A DNA stretch of 64,000 nt from Acidobacteriota bacterium (GCA_016201285.1 JACQDE010000086.1:1-64000), one strand, 5' to 3'; positions 24,774 through 31,650 are shown, counted from the first letter of the stretch. The notes: generated by a model not told the origin, from the letters alone. A program made the numbers and translations.

Positions 24774-25526
24774 TCAATATCGCGGCGGAACCGGCGTAAT
24801 CAATTGCGCGCTCAAGTGTTGCGCACTCTTGGTGCCGGCTAGTTTGGTGGCCTGTTCTTCAGCCGGCGAGGTGGGAATCCCCCGAAGTTGCTGCTGAAAG
24901 ACCGCAAACCGTTCCTCAGACATGCCCCGCAGGAAGCACTTCATCACAACGATCGCTTCTCGCAGGCACGTGTTCAGGTCGTAGTGCAAGTGATCAAGTT
25001 CCTGCCACGCTGCCCGGGGCTCCACGCTCTGGTTTTCGGCAATCTCTTTCGAAGTCGTCTTGAATTGCCGTGTTAGGCCATCCACGGCCGCCTGTAGCAC
25101 TCGCAGCTTGTGGAAGAAGCGCAGCCGTGTGCTCAGCAGCAGCTTGTGCAGCAGCCACTGGAGTGCGGCCGCCATTCGCGCATCGGAGTGTCGGAAGTTG
25201 GAGGCTGTCAGGGGCAACACCACGGGCAACGCGGACATCCGCCCCCCGTGCTCTTTCATTCCCCGGATCAGGATTCCCACTTTCCAGGCCAGCCGCTCGC
25301 CCAGCTCCCCGCACACGCCGGCCTGCTCGCGCGCCTGCACCAACTGCCCGTTCGACCGCAGCCGCATCGCTTCGTCCAGAGCCACGCTCATCATCGTGTA
25401 CGTCGCTTCCAGCGACACCACCACGTCACGAAAAAGCTGCTGCCGGTCACCGGGCAAGCGCGAAACCCACTCCGCATGAACACAGTCCTCCGCCGGGATG
25501 TTTCGTTGGCCACCAGAGTTTCCCAC
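24774..25526 (-). CDS. helical protein of unknown function
   Basis: About 250 residues, mostly helix, with no signal peptide or membrane segment. Recognisable features are only amphipathic helices (LFRDVVVSLEATYTMMSVAL, LLHKLLLSTRLRFFHKLRVL, LNTCLREAIVVMKCFLRGM). I do not know the family. The start is a GTG at 25524-25526 preceded by GGAGGA, chosen over a longer frame to 25868 that would run through attL and the integrase gene. A TATAAT box lies just upstream. Before the element inserted, this gene was divergent from lysS. Confidence 0.65.
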   Translation of the reverse strand: MGNSGGQRNIPAEDCVHAEWVSRLPGDRQQLFRDVVVSLEATYTMMSVALDEAMRLRSNGQLVQAREQAGVCGELGERLAWKVGILIRGMKEHGGRMSALPVVLPLTASNFRHSDARMAAALQWLLHKLLLSTRLRFFHKLRVLQAAVDGLTRQFKTTSKEIAENQSVEPRAAWQELDHLHYDLNTCLREAIVVMKCFLRGMSEERFAVFQQQLRGIPTSPAEEQATKLAGTKSAQHLSAQLITPVPPRY

Positions 25527-25551
25527 CGTTCCTCCGAGCCCGCCTTTGCCT

Positions 25552-25557
25552 ATTATA
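25552..25557 (-). promoter_or_regulatory. -10 box of the 24774-25526 gene
   Basis: TATAAT on the minus strand, 25 bases before the GTG start, leaving room for the GGAGGA ribosome-binding site at 25530-25535. No clear -35 hexamer is seen at 16-18 bases. It lies just outside the left end of the integrated element. Confidence 0.45.
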
Positions 25558-25607
25558 CTCAACGCGCCTCGGGCCCACCGCTTTTCTTTCCCTCGGCTAC
25601 GGTGCCT

Positions 25608-25631
25608 GTCCTTGACGCTTTCCGAACCCCC
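25608..25631 (+). repeat. attL core, 24-bp direct repeat
   Basis: Starts GTCCTTGACGCTTTCCGAAC and ends in CCCC; identical to 30023-30046. It includes TTGACG, which is the -35 hexamer of lysS in the right copy. Here no -10 box follows at a suitable distance, so this copy is promoter-dead. Confidence 0.85.
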
Positions 25632-25664
25632 GGAGAGCGCCACGGCAGCGGCCAGCGCAAGCCC

Positions 25665-25683
25665 GGTGTCCAGCAGGTGTCCA
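25665..25683 (+). repeat. two 8-bp sites, putative integrase arm sites (left)
   Basis: GGTGTCCA occurs at 25665-25672 and 25676-25683, 11 bases apart, about one helical turn, between attL and the integrase start. The last base of the second copy is the A of the integrase ATG. The same 8-mer or its complement occurs four times next to attR. I infer recombinase arm-type binding sites, which could also repress integrase expression. Confidence 0.5.
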
Positions 25684-26668
25684 TGTTGAAGAAACACGGC
25701 AAGTACTTCGCCGACTGGAGAGACGAACGCGGACGACGCCACCGCAAGAGCTTCGCCACCGCGCACGAAGCGAAGAAGTACCAGACCAAACAGCAGAGCA
25801 CCGCCGCAGCAAAAAAAGCCCCGGCGTCGGGACCGCGCGGGAAGTCCTCGAAGCATTCGCCGAAACACTCCCGCGCAACTACCACGCGGCCTACGTCGCC
25901 AAAGAGCTAGCGCGGCTCGTCGGCCACGTGCCCGCGCATCACCTCACGCCGCTGCACGCGCAGACCATCGTGGCCCGGTGGCGGCAAAGCTACACACGCA
26001 ACACCTGCTACAGCCGCAGACAGGCGCTGGCGCGGGTGCTGCGCTGGTACCAACACGCAACATGTCTGCACGGCCTCACCGATGAAATCCCGAAAGTACC
26101 CGGCCCGCGGCAGCGACAGAGCATCGCCACGCCGCTCGAACTCGGGCAACTGCACGCCGCCGCAGACCCGCTCCTGCGTTTCTGGCTGCGCCTCACCAGC
26201 GCCCTCGCCCTCGGGCAAAACGAAGTCCGCATGCTCAGCGCCGCGCACTACCACGCGGAAAACCGAACGGTGTCCTTCGTCAGGAAAAAGACCGGCGAAC
26301 CCAACACCCTCCCCGTACCCGACGACCTCGCCGAAATCTTCGAAGCCGCGCCCGACTTCGGTGACCCAGCGATGCCGTTCCTGCAGCGCTGGAATCGCGG
26401 GAAGAAACTCAGTGCACAGGCCGTCGCGCACCGCTGGAACACACTCAAAAAACTGGCCGGCGTCCGCGCCGAACTCACCCCGCACGACCTCAGGCGCACC
26501 ACCGCAACTGCGCTCTACGACCTCACCAAAGACCTGCGCGTCGTCCAGCAACTGCTCGGCCACACCAGCATGAAGGCCACCGTCAGCTACGTCGCCCACG
26601 TGGACCCCAGCCAGCTACGGCCCCTACTCGCCCAACTCTGGAAACCCCAAACGGAGGTGAAGCAGTGA
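25683..26668 (+). CDS. tyrosine recombinase/integrase, split by a -1 frame change at an A7 run
   Basis: The N-terminal 45 residues (from the ATG at 25683: HGKYFADWRDERGRRHRKSF, an arm-binding AP2-like start) are in one frame. From 25817 the coding continues in the -1 frame without stops to 26668, giving about 329 residues in total, normal for the family. The change falls on seven A (25811-25817) read as gcA AAA AAA, a correct -1 slippery heptamer. The C-terminal catalytic domain has KKTGEP (beta-hairpin Lys), HDLRRT, LLGHTSM and SYVAHVD with the Tyr. The usual first Arg (TGxR) appears replaced in SALALGQNEV. It could be programmed frameshifting, transcriptional slippage, mutation or sequencing error. 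Confidence 0.75.
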
Positions 26669-26862
26669 AGCAGCAACCACAACTCTTCGCGCCAGTCGGC
26701 TACCGCCACTGCACCGGCTGTCGCGCACTCCTGCCCGAAAACCAACTGCGCTGCGACTCGCGCCGCTGCACGCAGCTACGAGCCAACGCCCACCTGAAAG
26801 CGCTCAAACGCGCCTTCGACTTGTCCAGAGCGCCAGCGGAGGAAAAGAGAGGAGCACCATGA
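26665..26862 (+). CDS. small zinc-ribbon-like protein
   Basis: 65 residues. CTGC at ~16-19 and a second cysteine pair C-x4-C (CDSRRC, ~30-35) could bind one zinc ion; the rest is basic and helical. The GTG start overlaps the integrase stop (GTGA). Family unknown. Its 3' part contains a 20-base sequence (26819-26838) repeated at 29804-29823. Confidence 0.6.
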   Translation: MKQQPQLFAPVGYRHCTGCRALLPENQLRCDSRRCTQLRANAHLKALKRAFDLSRAPAEEKRGAP

Positions 26863-27116
26863 AAACCGCAAAAAAACGGGGGCCCCAGATAGCCCCCCGC
26901 GCACGAAGAACGAGGGGGACCACACCACACAACCCCAACGGGAAGGACACCAGAATCCTCGGAGAAATCACCGTGCGGTGTCCACACTGCGCCACGCTCA
27001 CGGTCTCGCGGATTCTCTACTGCGGGGCGTATCGCATCTGTGCCGAGTGCCGCACGTGTGGACACCACAAACGGCTCGGAGCACGGCTGGCCGGAAGGAT
27101 GGAGGCCGCAGCATGA
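26859..27116 (+). CDS. small basic zinc-ribbon protein
   Basis: 85 residues, very basic N-terminus (KTAKKRGPQIAPRARRTRG), then VRCPHCATLTV and YRICAECRTCGHHKR, giving two CxxC pairs typical of a zinc ribbon. DNA or RNA binding is plausible but not shown. The ATG overlaps the previous stop (ATGA, 26859-26862). Two copies of the 8-bp motif (26977-26984, 27059-27066) lie inside the gene. Confidence 0.6.
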   Translation: MKTAKKRGPQIAPRARRTRGTTPHNPNGKDTRILGEITVRCPHCATLTVSRILYCGAYRICAECRTCGHHKRLGARLAGRMEAAA

Positions 27117-27388
27117 CCTACAAAACCTACAAAATGATTTACATCACCATCGAAACGAGCGCGGTGTCCAGCGAGACGCGCTGCAACTACTGTCGCGCCG
27201 TGCTCCAGAGAAAAGACAACATACAAAACCTCGATGCCCACGACGCGGCAGAATTCCTCACCCAACTCCTCACCCATCCGTGCTTCCAGCCCATCTCTCC
27301 GCCCGCGCCAGAGGCGCGGGCGTCGGATAGATGCGCCCCGGGCGGATCGAATAGACCCGCCTCGGGCGGGAAAGCGGGGACCCAATGA
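27113..27388 (+). CDS. small protein with one CxxC motif
   Basis: About 91 residues. The N-terminal half (IYITIETSAVSSETRCNYCRAVL ... DAAEFLTQLLTH) looks like a real small domain with a single CxxC. The last ~30 residues are encoded by a hairpin and two repeat copies (27301-27369), so the tail may have been added by repeat insertion. The ATG overlaps the previous stop (27113-27116). Function unknown. Confidence 0.55.
   Translation: MTYKTYKMIYITIETSAVSSETRCNYCRAVLQRKDNIQNLDAHDAAEFLTQLLTHPCFQPISPPAPEARASDRCAPGGSNRPASGGKAGTQ
27301..27369. repeat. hairpin plus two copies of a dispersed repeat
   Basis: A perfect 9-bp stem, GCCCGCGCC (27301-27309) against 27313-27321, with loop AGA, is followed by two related 22-base units at 27324-27345 (starting CGGATAGATGCGCC) and 27348-27369 (starting CGAATAGACCCGCC). 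The same unit recurs at 28731, 28946 and, in part, at 28916 and 19643. Confidence 0.6.
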
Positions 27389-27573
27389 TGACGCGAGCCA
27401 GCCGACGAGAGAAAGTGCAGGCCATCGAGAGAGACGTGAACAAACTCGAAACCGAACTCACCAAGGCCATCCGGCAACTCAGCGAGACCGCCGAAGAGCA
27501 ACTCCGCGAATTGAAGCAGAGAACCAAGCGACTGGCCCTCGACATCGAGACGCAGACGGAGAACGACCCATGA
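27385..27573 (+). CDS. small coiled-coil protein
   Basis: 62 residues, almost all one amphipathic helix with heptad spacing (IERDVNKLETELTKAIRQLS and on through LRELKQRTKRLAL). No cysteine pairs. The ATG overlaps the previous stop (27385-27388). Probably a dimerising accessory protein of the element; function unknown. Confidence 0.6.
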   Translation: MMTRASRREKVQAIERDVNKLETELTKAIRQLSETAEEQLRELKQRTKRLALDIETQTENDP

Positions 27574-27764
27574 GCCACCACCAAACAAAAGCGACGGAGA
27601 GCGTGACGGCATACTGCAACCGATGCGGCAAGCGCACGCAGCACGCCGTCTCAGACGGACGACAAGGCCGGTGCACCGAGCACGAAGCGCCAGACCTCAC
27701 CAAGCGCCAAATCGAGAAGCGGCTACGACGTCAGAGAGAAGCCGAAAACCCGCGCCTGTTCTGA
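27570..27764 (+). CDS. small zinc-finger-like protein
   Basis: 64 residues. CNRCGKRTQHAV and a later CTEHE give a C-x2-C ... C-x2-H pattern, followed by a basic helix (TKRQIEKRLRRQREAE). The ATG overlaps the previous stop (27570-27573) and is the last of the chain of overlapping genes beginning with the integrase. Confidence 0.6.
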   Translation: MSHHQTKATESVTAYCNRCGKRTQHAVSDGRQGRCTEHEAPDLTKRQIEKRLRRQREAENPRLF

Positions 27765-28730
27765 CGCACGCGCACCACGGACACGCACACCACCACGGAC
27801 ACGTCCGGGCTTGCCGCTCGGACACTCTAATGCGGTCGTCGCGGTGAGCAGGGAGAGAGCCAGCGTGTTGGTTGCCCCGCTCCGGGAGCAGCCGCAGCAG
27901 TGCCATCCCGTTCGGTCGCTTGCGGGCGCGCGGCGTCTCGGCAGCAGACATCGACCGCCGCGCTGCCCGCTTCGCTTCCTCACGTGGGTTGGTCGGCCCA
28001 TGAGCAGCAAACCATCTCCCCAAACGCAGTCCAGCGTGAGCTAGCACTGGGATGCGGTGCGCCGCGCGTAGAGCCACGCGGATGCGCCACGGCAAAGCTG
28101 GCCGCCATCCGGCGTCCATGCCGTGGCTGCCGCGTGCAGCGCGGCGGTCATCATTCGCGCCGGGCCAGCGCACGCGCTGTCCCGCCTCCACTGCGCAATT
28201 CCCACGCCACCGCCGCAGCGCCTCCGGCGCTAGACGCGGCCCTCGCGCAGCCGCTGGGGCGGCTACGCGCGCTCGGGGCTTCGCCGGTGGGCGGGGAATT
28301 GCTTGCTCCGGTGCGGTCGCGCTCCCGCTCGGGCTTCGCCCTTCGCGCACGCTCCCGCAGCGCGGAGAGCGCGTGCTGCGAAAGCACAGGCCGCTGGCAG
28401 GGCCGGTGCTCCAGGTGTCGGCGCGGGCCGTCGTTCTTTTCTCCGCTCGTTCGGCCACCCTCGCGCGATGCACCAGCGCTCGGTGTCCTAACTTCGCCAA
28501 GCCTGTAGGTGAGTCGCCCTGTTCGGGCTGCCCGCGCCTTATCAGGGTGCGGCCCTTCGTCGCTCCGAGGGTCGCTCCTCAGGGCCGACTATCTTTTTCT
28601 CACGTCGCACCGGCCTGTTCTGCCCAGCGGCCTGTCGCGCAGCACGCGCCAGGTGCCGTTGGTCGTCGCTCCGCTCCGTCGTTGGTCGGGGGCGCTGCCC
28701 CCGAACCCCCGCAGCAAGCCGCCGCCGTGC

Positions 28731-28752
28731 CGGATAGATGCGCCCGGGGCGC
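28731..28752 (+). repeat. dispersed repeat unit
   Basis: Begins CGGATAGATGCGCC and continues into GGGGCGC; related to 27324-27345 and 28946-28967 with changes in the right half. Confidence 0.5.
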
Positions 28753-28945
28753 ACACCGCGCCGCGTGCCGGTGTATGCGCGTCCTCCATCGGCAGCGGCT
28801 TCCGAGGCGCGTGGCACGACTCTGGAGCGCTGGCAGCGATGCCTGTAGAGGGTTAGTGACCGCTCGTTGTCCCGATGGAAACCGCATCGGGCCTCACTCG
28901 TCGCAGACCCGCCTGAAGATGCGCCTCGGGCGCAAACGCGCCACT

Positions 28946-28967
28946 CGGATAGATCCGCCTCGGGCGG
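28946..28967 (+). repeat. dispersed repeat unit, best hairpin form
   Basis: Begins CGGATAGATCCGCC and continues TCGGGCGG, so CCGCC and GGCGG can pair around TCG. A partial unit lies at 28916-28933. Shares 17 bases with the copy near 19644 outside the element. Confidence 0.55.
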
Positions 28968-29056
28968 AAGTGACGCAGGCCGCACGTTCTCGACTCGCCA
29001 CGACCCACAGCACCATCGGGATTGCACCAAAACCGGGCAGGTGAGAAACTCCCTGC

Positions 29057-29689
29057 ATGCGACCGCACAGGCAGCGGCAGCGCCGAGCGCCAGGCCGACG
29101 CCGAGCTAAGCGCGGAGGCCGCCCTGTAAAGGCTACCCCTCCGGAGCAGAGCGCCGCCGCTGCCGAAAAGTCGAACGCCGAGCACGACCCCATAGAACGC
29201 GCCGTCGAGATCCTCGCCAGCGAACTCCCCGCGCTGGTCACCACCGCCGTGCTCCGGGCGAAGAAGGGCAAGCCCGCCACGCTGCTGCGCAGCGTGCACC
29301 GCATGGTCAAAGAGTTGGACACCATGATTGTGCTGCGCAAGAGCACGCGACCGCAGGAGTGGGAGCGGCTCAAGGCGTTCGGCCCTATCACCGGGCGCGA
29401 GGCGCTGATTCTCGGGAACCTGCTCGAGCTGCTGCGCAGCGCCCCGCCACCGGAAGAGGCCAGCACCGCAGGCGGAAGCCCGCACCCGGTCTGGACCCCG
29501 GAGCGCATCCGCGCCGCGCAGCAGGAGCACGACGAGCAAAGCAACAAACTCGTAGGGGCGACCAGGTCGCCCGAACACTCGCCCGAACCCTCACCCTCAC
29601 CCTCGGGCGGATACGACGGCCCGGACCGCCGCAGCCACACCGTCAGCACGTTCTTCGGCAAGCACGAACGGCGACGGCATCGGAAGTGA
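29057..29689 (+). CDS. hypothetical protein of the integrative element
   Basis: 210 residues. A basic N-terminus precedes a helical central part (IERAVEILASELPALVTTAV ... LLRSVHRMVKELDTMIVLRK ... EALILGNLLELL), then a Pro/Ser-rich tail. Codon usage from about residue 40 looks coding (G/C in third positions), unlike the stretch upstream. I do not recognise a family. A hairpin repeat (29556-29572) lies within the coding sequence near the tail. Confidence 0.6.
   Translation: MRPHRQRQRRAPGRRRAKRGGRPVKATPPEQSAAAAEKSNAEHDPIERAVEILASELPALVTTAVLRAKKGKPATLLRSVHRMVKELDTMIVLRKSTRPQEWERLKAFGPITGREALILGNLLELLRSAPPPEEASTAGGSPHPVWTPERIRAAQQEHDEQSNKLVGATRSPEHSPEPSPSPSGGYDGPDRRSHTVSTFFGKHERRRHRK
29556..29572. 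repeat. GGGCGACC hairpin repeat inside a gene
   Basis: GGGCGACC at 29556-29563 and GGTCGCCC at 29565-29572 around a single A, preceded by GTAG. The same element, with a GGCA loop, lies in the intergenic cluster at 62367-62386, and a left half at 5511-5525. This suggests a chromosomal palindromic repeat family that entered the gene's tail. Confidence 0.55.
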
Positions 29690-30022
29690 ACCCGCACTCG
29701 GCACGCCAGCTGGCCCTGCTTGCCCCGCTTGCCCTGAGGGAAGTCGAAGGGAGCGGGGGCGAGGGGAGCGAAAGCGAAGGGCCACGCGGCCCCGATGCCC
29801 CCCACTTGTCCAGAGCGCCAGCGAAGGATCGGGGCCGCCCCGCCCCGGCCCGCCGCGGCCTCCCGCTACAAAGCAGTCAATACCCCGAACCGTAACCCCG
29901 GTGGACACCGCGCCCGTTTGGTGTCCATCTTTTCGCTGGACACCGCCCCACAACCCGCGTAGAGTACCGCTAGCAATGGACACCGGAAACCCGACCGGCC
30001 ACAACTGCTAGCGTAGTTCCTA
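29690..30022. other. right-end non-coding region of the element
   Basis: No credible gene. It holds a REP-like segment (CCCTGAGGGAAGTCGAAGGG near 29732), a 20-base copy (29804-29823) of sequence found at 26819-26838, and the cluster of TGGACACC sites before attR. Confidence 0.55.
29902..29984. repeat. four 8-bp sites, putative integrase arm sites (right)
   Basis: TGGACACC or its complement GGTGTCCA occurs at 29902-29909, 29920-29927, 29937-29944 and 29977-29984, with attR 39 bases beyond the last. Same motif as the left pair at 25665-25683. An 8-mer four times in 83 bases is far above chance. Confidence 0.55.
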
Positions 30023-30046
30023 GTCCTTGACGCTTTCCGAACCCCC
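30023..30046 (+). repeat. attR core, 24-bp direct repeat
   Basis: Identical to 25608-25631. It carries the -35 hexamer and most of the spacer of the lysS promoter, so the element restores the promoter at its right end. Confidence 0.85.
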
Positions 30047-30056
30047 TCGCTATACT
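30027..30056 (+). promoter_or_regulatory. lysS promoter, partly supplied by attR
   Basis: -35 TTGACG (30027-30032), 18-base spacer, -10 TATACT (30051-30056). Transcription would start about 30063, giving a leader of ~25 bases with AAGGA at 30076-30080 before the TTG start. The -35 and 14 spacer bases are inside the 24-bp repeat; the -10 is chromosomal. Confidence 0.75.
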
Positions 30057-30087
30057 CGCCCGCGACTCATTCAGAAAGGATCTTCGC

Positions 30088-31650
30088 TTGCCCTTTGAGC
30101 CACTCGATCAGTACCTTCAGCGCCAGAAAAAGCTGAAAGAGCTGGCGGCCTTCGGCCACGACCCTTACCCGCATCGGTTCGATGCTTCGCACACGGTAAA
30201 GGAGATCCTGGACCGCTGCGGCTCCCGCACCAAAGACGCGCTCGAGGCCGAGAAAGTTCCCGCCCGCGTCGCCGGCCGCATCATGACTCTCCGTCTGCAT
30301 GGCAAGGCCGGCTTCGCTCACATTCAGGGCCAGGGCTCCCGCCTCCAGATCTACGTCAAGCTCGACGTCGTCGGCCAGAGTATTTTCGAACTATTTCGCC
30401 TTCTCGACATGGGCGACATCATTGGCGTCGAGGGCTTTCTCTTCCGCACGAAAACGGACGAGCTCACCGTCTGGGTCGAAAAGCTGACGCTGCTCACCAA
30501 GTCCCTGCTGCCACTTCCCGAAAAGTGGCACGGGCTCTCCGACGTCGAGTTGCGCTACCGCCAGCGCTACCTCGATCTCATCTCCAATGAGGGTGTCCGC
30601 GACATCTTTATCAAGCGCGCCGCCATCATCCGCGAGATTCGCAGCTTCTTCGACACCCGCGGCTACGTCGAAGTCGAAACGCCGATGATGCATCTCATTG
30701 CCGGCGGCGCCACCGCGCGGCCCTTCATCACCCATCACAACACGCTCGACCTCGACCTCTATCTCCGCATCGCTCCCGAACTCTACCTGAAGCGTCTCGT
30801 CGTCGGCGGCCTGGACCGCGTCTACGAAATCAACCGCAACTTCCGCAACGAAGGCATCTCCACACAACACAACCCCGAGTTCACCATGCTCGAGTTCTAT
30901 CAGGCCTACAGCGATTACCGCGACCTGATGGACCTCACCGAGGAACTCGTCACTGGCCTCGTCCGGAATGTCTGCGGCTCGACATCCATCCCGTACGGTG
31001 AGCACACCGTTGATTTCGCAAAGTGGCAGCGTCTCTCCATGCGCGAGGCGATTTGCCGCTACTGGCCCGCCGACGCGGCGCCCGTGCCCACCCCCACTGA
31101 ACTCGCCGTGCCCGGCGGCCCTGCCGTCGGCATCGAGCGGTACAACCAGTGGGCCGCGGGGAAGGCCATGGAGCTTGCTCATGTCCCCAGCGGCGCCACC
31201 GACGGGTTCACCACCGCGTTGCTGTTCGAGCTGATCGCGGAGGACAAGCTCATCCAGCCGACGTTTATTTATGACTTTCCTACGGACATCTCGCCGCTCT
31301 CCAAGCAGCGCGACGACGATCCCTCGCTCGCCGAGCGCTTCGAGTTCTTTGCCGGTGGCCTCGAGCTCGGCAACGCCTTCTCCGAGTTGAACGATCCCGA
31401 CGAACAGGAGCGCCGTTTCCGCGAGCAGATCGCCCGCGGTGGCGATGAGGTCCCCAAGGAGCTCGACCTCGATTACATCCGCGCCCTTTGCCACGGCCTT
31501 CCGCCCGCCGCCGGCGAAGGCATCGGCATCGACCGCCTCACCATGCTCCTTACCGATTCGCACTCCATCCGCGACGTCATCCTGTTCCCGCTGATGCGGC
31601 CCGAAGCTCCTTCCGCGCCCGCGGAGCCGCCCCGCGAAGAGAAAAAATGA
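30088..31650 (+). CDS. lysS: lysyl-tRNA synthetase, class II
   Basis: 520 residues. An N-terminal OB-fold anticodon-binding domain (residues ~55-165, [20 protein letters not shown]) is followed by the class II core. Motif 1 lies around [19 protein letters not shown], motif 2 is [20 protein letters not shown], motif 3 is [14 protein letters not shown]. It charges tRNA-Lys. The start is TTG with AAGGA eight bases upstream. The stop overlaps the next gene (ATGA at 31647), linking it to a lipoprotein-export permease. Confidence 0.95.

Follow-up and report, generated by a model that had tools for sequence, protein, structure and literature searches.

A 64,000-nucleotide stretch of an Acidobacteriota genome (GCA_016201285.1, JACQDE010000086.1:1-64000), referred to here as the window, carries a 4.4-kb mobile element within the promoter of lysS, the lysyl-tRNA synthetase gene of this soil bacterium, and the promoter is left unbroken. 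The element is bounded by an exact 24-bp direct repeat, GTCCTTGACGCTTTCCGAACCCCC, whose two copies are 4,415 bp apart (Table 1). In a whole-genome search with the central 18 bases and one mismatch allowed, no copies other than these two were found in the 3.67-Mb genome, and the chance of an exact 24-mer repeat inside 4.4 kb was put at about 1e-8 to 1e-7 by a simple base-frequency estimate. The left end harbours an integrase gene which, when its two reading frames are fused, matches Pfam Phage_integrase (PF00589, 1.8e-19) and the tyrosine recombinase fold (XerA/XerC-like and lambda Int chains). No tRNA gene and no Rfam RNA family were found within the 64-kb window, and the exact 24-mer did not occur in viral contigs. 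With a direct-repeat core, an adjoining integrase and an empty site in relatives, the locus is very probably best explained as a small site-specific integrative element of a Terriglobia clade, as found here, in which the lysS promoter is rebuilt and the integrase is made by -1 frameshifting.

The right core copy is followed by TCGC and then by TATACT, which yields TTGACG-18-TATACT ahead of lysS. Throughout the family, the lysS promoter is conserved as TTGACGCT…TATACT; in about 30 family genomes lysS lies behind a TATACT promoter, mostly of the form TTGAC(G/C)-N17/18-TATACT, without the repeat. The joined flanks of the element (25201-25631 plus 30047-30150) aligned through the junction with a congener (G001:C232; 535 bp, 79%), the query and subject spans both being 534 bases and equal on each side of the junction, and also with a second congener (G002:C82; 530 bp, 75%). 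In both empty sites lysS stands next to the divergent left gene. Taken with the conserved family promoter, these empty sites indicate that the core is chromosomal promoter sequence and that the element brings a matching attP core. The original prediction had proposed that a perfect repeat bounds the 4.4 kb, that its right copy supplies TTGACG and most of an 18-base spacer before TATACT, and that the promoter thereby survives integration, and it had pointed to related genomes for an empty site. The coordinates were as it described, the repeat was exact with only two copies in the genome, the promoter was intact and of the same form as the family lysS promoters, and the flanks were joined without interruption in both congeners. 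As a separate observation, the first congener has two partial lysS loci, one being the empty site (L043, G001:C232) and the other (L045, G001:C147) lying on a contig that opens, at position 1, precisely within the attachment core's CCCC. This pair may represent a strain mixture or an inserted relative.

A second element was found at the same promoter in a genome of a different genus of the same family (G501); its integrase is a relative of the window's, with 36% identity across the fused protein. This element is 4.7 kb long and is bounded by a different core, TTTCTTGCCAGTGGCA. Its left core copy adjoins the divergent gene, and its right copy runs on as TAACCAGCCGT-TATACT and then lysS, the resulting TTGCCA-17-TATACT being the lysS promoter form of that genus. 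The joined flanks align across the junction to two further genomes (G017 and G027), and the core begins 4 bases before the -35, as in the window element. Recent common descent alone does not account for the shared lysS target, since the window integrase has its nearest relative (G477, 45%) in a DUF2461 gene. The independent, diverged element in the lysS -35 region argues that the promoter targeting is real. Apart from these two cases, no duplicated promoter cores were found up to 15 kb upstream of the approximately 30 lysS genes. At the level of genome comparison, the insertion, the empty sites, the conserved promoter and the second independent element at this promoter are established.

The integrase that had been predicted at the left end is present but is not a single open frame: a -1 shift at a slippery heptamer is required to join its two parts. 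The earlier reading had missed this split, the conserved frameshift signal and the loss of a catalytic arginine. Homologues were sought in 396 genomes of the phylum, 89 of the family and 399 of the class, many of which are metagenome assemblies, and in genome contigs, where a profile scan detected integrases and a single-sequence integrase scan gave nothing. Twenty-four homologues were found, all from Terriglobia, and no clade member was detected in viral contigs, phages or plasmids. All 24 encode the N-terminal domain in frame 0, with the catalytic part following in frame -1; the unshifted product consists of the arm-binding domain and an unconserved tail. An AAAAAAA, CCCAAAA or GGGAAAA heptamer in the correct phase was present 107-128 nt past the start in 20 of the 24; elsewhere in these genes, such heptamers occur at 4 of 5,750 codon positions (0.07%). 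A binomial figure of 1e-40 makes the case look too strong, since the sequences are related, but chance is excluded.

Base pairing downstream of the heptamer was scored without alignment because MAFFT alignments of the slip region misplaced the stem arms. The best stem starting 4-11 nt past the heptamer was compared with shuffles and with control positions within the genes. The stem score averaged 18.6 at the site, whereas codon positions elsewhere in these genes averaged 12.0 (Fisher p about 1e-11 across the clade, independence assumed). The stems begin 4-10 nt past the heptamer, known -1 stimulators usually beginning 5-8 nt downstream (PMC4066793), and their arms differ between homologues (GGCGGTG/CACCGCC, GGCGAG/CTCGCC, ACGCGGA/TCCGCGT, GCCTCGG/CCGAGGC). 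In a tree with distant outgroups, some rows of which were poor, the frameshifted integrases all fell on one side of a branch. The integrase genes have the hallmarks of frameshift genes, a conserved in-phase X_XXY_YYZ heptamer and a downstream structure that is clade-wide but not significant in the window copy alone, and these strongly suggest programmed -1 ribosomal frameshifting as the way in which the integrase is produced.

The window copy differs from its relatives in its catalytic state. Alignment position 178, which is the catalytic Arg I in the other 9 aligned homologues, is Gly in the window integrase, and a scan of the other 21 fused homologues showed Arg at this place in each. The window integrase retains K203, H268, R271, H294 and Y303. 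With Arg I lost, the window element is probably no longer self-mobile, and it is probably immobile and fixed in place.

Repeats of the type expected for integrase arm sites are concentrated in the element, with 10 copies of GGTGTCCA inside it and 3 in the remaining 59.6 kb. The sibling elements share this layout, and their element-specific variants (GGTGTCC, GGTGACA, GGTCTCC, GCTGTCC) agree between both ends. A conserved 45-aa N-domain and repeat pairs at either end of nearly all 14 elements identify these proteins as integrases with an arm-binding domain, the binding itself being predicted. Pairs of arm sites lie directly before the int start, where binding by the unshifted product could regulate the element. 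In the mechanism proposed here, the tyrosine integrase has recombined the 24-bp attP core with the matching -35 and spacer stretch of the lysS promoter. As the 24 bases of attP are identical to those of the target, the right junction restores TTGACG-18-TATACT exactly and the lysS promoter is kept, with only the sequence upstream of the -35 replaced. Translation in frame 0 would give a short arm-binding protein, and slippage on the heptamer about 125 nt past the start, helped by the downstream stem, would give the full integrase. The more abundant short product might bind the arm repeats abutting the int start and repress int, and might also compete with the full enzyme for arm sites, so that the element would be kept quiet. 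Autoregulation has been described for intS of KplE1 (PMC2951348).

Several points weigh against this interpretation. Four homologues (L052, L199, L200 and L211) have the frame split without a canonical heptamer, the window's own stem is weak (p 0.21-0.25), the mean minimum free energy z-score is modest (-0.75, compared with -0.27), and the branch that would indicate a single origin of the frameshifted clade is weakly supported (65/4). In addition, that the short product acts as a regulator is an inference. Among other explanations, it is unlikely that the element alters lysS expression, for instance as an excision switch of the SpyCI kind. The sequence upstream of the -35 is indeed replaced, and 5'-end elements such as SpyCI switch mutL (discussed in PMC4701971), but the -35, the spacer and the -10 are unchanged, and switching by the window copy is unlikely with an integrase that lacks Arg I.

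As regards the frame switch, it is improbable that it is made by slippage of RNA polymerase (programmed transcriptional realignment) instead of by the ribosome. Runs of seven As can induce such slippage, which has been proposed for several insertion sequence (IS) transposases (PMC3711429), but about half of the clade has CCCAAAA or GGGAAAA, with no long homopolymer and with tandem tRNA slippage possible, so that transcript slippage is not a ready explanation. In addition, the direction is always -1, which is a sign of ribosomal shifting (PMC3711429), and the stems follow the heptamer. Marginally less probable again is the synthesis of two separate proteins, an arm-binding one and an internally started catalytic one, without frameshifting: the -1 frame does have internal GTG and TTG codons (in the window, GTG at 25928), but a protein begun at one of them would lack some of the core-binding domain; moreover, conservation of the -1 frame extends as far as the heptamer itself (KK|SP), and chance comes nowhere near explaining heptamers that recur in phase at a constant place. 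The notion that the two-frame integrase is a pseudogene or a homopolymer assembly error in a decaying element, for which the Arg I to Gly change and the seven As, a typical error site, might speak, is very improbable; as a general account it is refuted by the -1 split shared among 24/24 homologues from independent assemblies, by CCCAAAA and GGGAAAA heptamers that are not error-prone homopolymers, and by two open and conserved frames; decay does explain the loss of Arg I in the window copy alone.

The elements of the clade were compared for their targets. The sibling elements are 1.6-4.8 kb long and their insertion sites are varied. Among them are tRNA 3' ends (L223 and L224, as the repeat sequence indicates), the 3' ends of asnS (L219) and a prolyl oligopeptidase gene (L229), and the interior of MmgE/PrpD (L213) and DUF2461 (L215) genes. 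Others lie in the first codons of mnmG (L221), ppc (L222) and trpG (L220, G259:C6 49339-53792, with two tandem element copies and three core copies), at the start of a nucleoside hydrolase gene (L226), or ahead of a TPR protein gene with a promoter-like TTGGAA-16-GATAAT (L217). The specificity of the clade is thus varied, with promoter and start-codon regions as frequent targets. Two elements of one genome (L213 and L214; G501:C21 and C34) share matching blocks of 76-96% DNA identity along most of their length, while their integrases are only 57% identical and their targets differ, a case of integrase divergence with target switching. In L215 a short stretch resembling an integrase N-terminus (MMQKYGRWYADW) precedes the interrupted DUF2461 gene, about 376 bp before the start of the integrase; it is a possible scar of an older element. 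L221 and L229 share a small first open reading frame (ORF) after the integrase (...RALxHCKxxWxxAxxxAxxKGxxxxxALRMA), which may be a conserved second gene of family f11 elements.

As cargo the window element carries a row of small Cys-rich ORFs, an orphan ORF and a GC-rich region that lacks clear genes; none of the ORFs matches a family. The orphan ORF had no match in Pfam, PHROG, NCBIfam or PADLOC, nothing useful in viral contigs or plasmids, and one weak match in the 396 phylum genomes; PADLOC gave no defence match. Other classes of element were considered and rejected. Conjugation genes of an integrative and conjugative element (ICE) were not found in the 4.4 kb, where the integrase alone matches a family; structural or packaging genes of a prophage or phage satellite were not found, the only PHROG matches being the integrase and weak coiled-coil matches; and an IS element with -1 frameshifting does not fit a recombinase that is of the tyrosine and not the DDE type, or repeats that are direct and not terminal inverted. 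Two further repeats occur inside the element. About 65 bp (CTTGCCCCGCTTGCCCTGAGGGAAGTCGAAGGG...) at 29715-29780 belong to a dispersed repeat resembling repetitive extragenic palindromic (REP) sequences, present at about 12 places in the genome. A 24-base repeat with a palindromic centre (TCGGATAGATGCGCCCCGGGCGGA) has four copies in the element (27323-27370, 28730-28753, 28945-28968) and two further matches elsewhere in the genome.

Table 1. Positions of the element, its genes and its flanking features in the window.
Feature	Position	Strand	Basis or remark
Divergent chromosomal gene left of the element; start approximate; adjoins lysS in empty sites	24774..25500	-	tblastn/blastn to G001, G002
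Integrated element, 4,415 bp	25608..30022 (second 24-bp core extends to 30046)	.	exact direct repeat; orthologous site empty in two congeners
attL, left attachment core; -35 region of the lysS promoter minus its -10	25608..25631	+	exact repeat, genome search
Arm-type repeat pair GGTGTCCAGCAGGTGTCCA, ending at the integrase start codon	25665..25683	+	GGTGTCCA counts; siblings alike
Integrase frame 0: N-terminal arm-binding-like domain, MLKKHGKYFADWRDERGRRHRKSFATAHEAKKYQ...AAKK, 75 aa to stop	25683..25910	+	
Slippery heptamer A_AAA_AAA at the frame switch	25811..25817	+	canonical heptamer here in 20/24 homologues
Integrase frame -1: core-binding and catalytic domains	25817..26668	+	
Codon GGG, Gly in place of catalytic Arg I	26213..26215	+	alignment column 178
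Small Cys-rich ORF, start overlaps integrase end	26665..26862	+	no family
Small zinc-ribbon-like ORF	26859..27116	+	match below cut-off
Small ORF, weak BED-finger match	27113..27388	+	match below cut-off
Small coiled-coil-like ORF	27385..27573	+	
Small Cys-containing ORF	27570..27764	+	
Orphan ORF, 210 aa	29057..29689	+	no family
Four arm-type repeats (TGGACACC/GGTGTCCA: 29902, 29920, 29937, 29977), near right end	29902..29984	.	
attR, right attachment core; gives lysS TTGACG and 14 of 18 spacer bases	30023..30046	+	exact repeat, promoter comparison
lysS promoter TTGACG-18-TATACT (TTGACG 30027-30032, TATACT 30051-30056)	30027..30056	+	conserved through family
lysS, lysyl-tRNA synthetase, chromosomal target gene	30088..31650	+	

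Control by programmed frameshifting is classic among DDE transposases, and the frameshift products of IS1 and IS3 are the model for a regulatory short product. IS1, IS3 and IS911 resemble the present elements in that frame 0 gives an N-terminal DNA-binding protein and -1 slippage the full recombinase, with an A_AAA_AAA/G type heptamer and a downstream stem, but they encode DDE transposases and have no site-specific attachment core (PMC4066793, PMC3711429). In intS of KplE1, the integrase and arm sites overlap the int promoter at attL and autoregulation is negative, as proposed here, but the full integrase represses itself and there is no separate frameshift arm-binding product (PMC2951348). 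In the open full-text literature, as far as it was consulted and including the recoding papers PMC3711429, PMC5009743 and PMC4066793, no report of a frameshifted tyrosine integrase was found.

That an attachment core in the -35 of an essential gene is unusual, as had been noted in the original prediction, holds, though targets at 5' ends and promoters are not unprecedented. According to the portions consulted of PMC4701971, Streptococcus ICEs with tyrosine integrases also use the 5' ends of essential genes (ftsK, rbgA, ebfC) and leave the downstream gene intact; they also target lysS, which is there grouped with the 3'-end targets. They differ in being conjugative and in having 5' cores at the coding 5' end and not in the -35 box, and those portions mention no frameshift. 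TnGBS, cited in the same source, likewise inserts close to promoters, but by a DDE transposase, 15-16 bp upstream of the -35 and without a core within the promoter. The dusA-associated islands also insert at a 5' end, supplying a new -35/-10 and N-terminus; in their case the coding sequence is rebuilt, and no frameshifted integrase is described in the part of PMC4482086 consulted.

For the clade as a whole, it is tentatively proposed that -1 frameshifting may set the ratio of free arm-binding protein, acting as repressor and recombination brake, to full integrase, that the logic of IS1 and IS3 would thus have evolved separately in lambda-like recombination, and that promoters and start-codon regions of essential genes may repeatedly have been taken as attachment sites. 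If this is true, a translational ratio would separate arm binding from catalysis within one gene, and such integrases would be prone, in Terriglobia, to annotation as broken or partial genes. At lysS, the promoter -35 region of a single essential gene has been entered by two elements independently, which offers a clean model of harmless promoter targeting.

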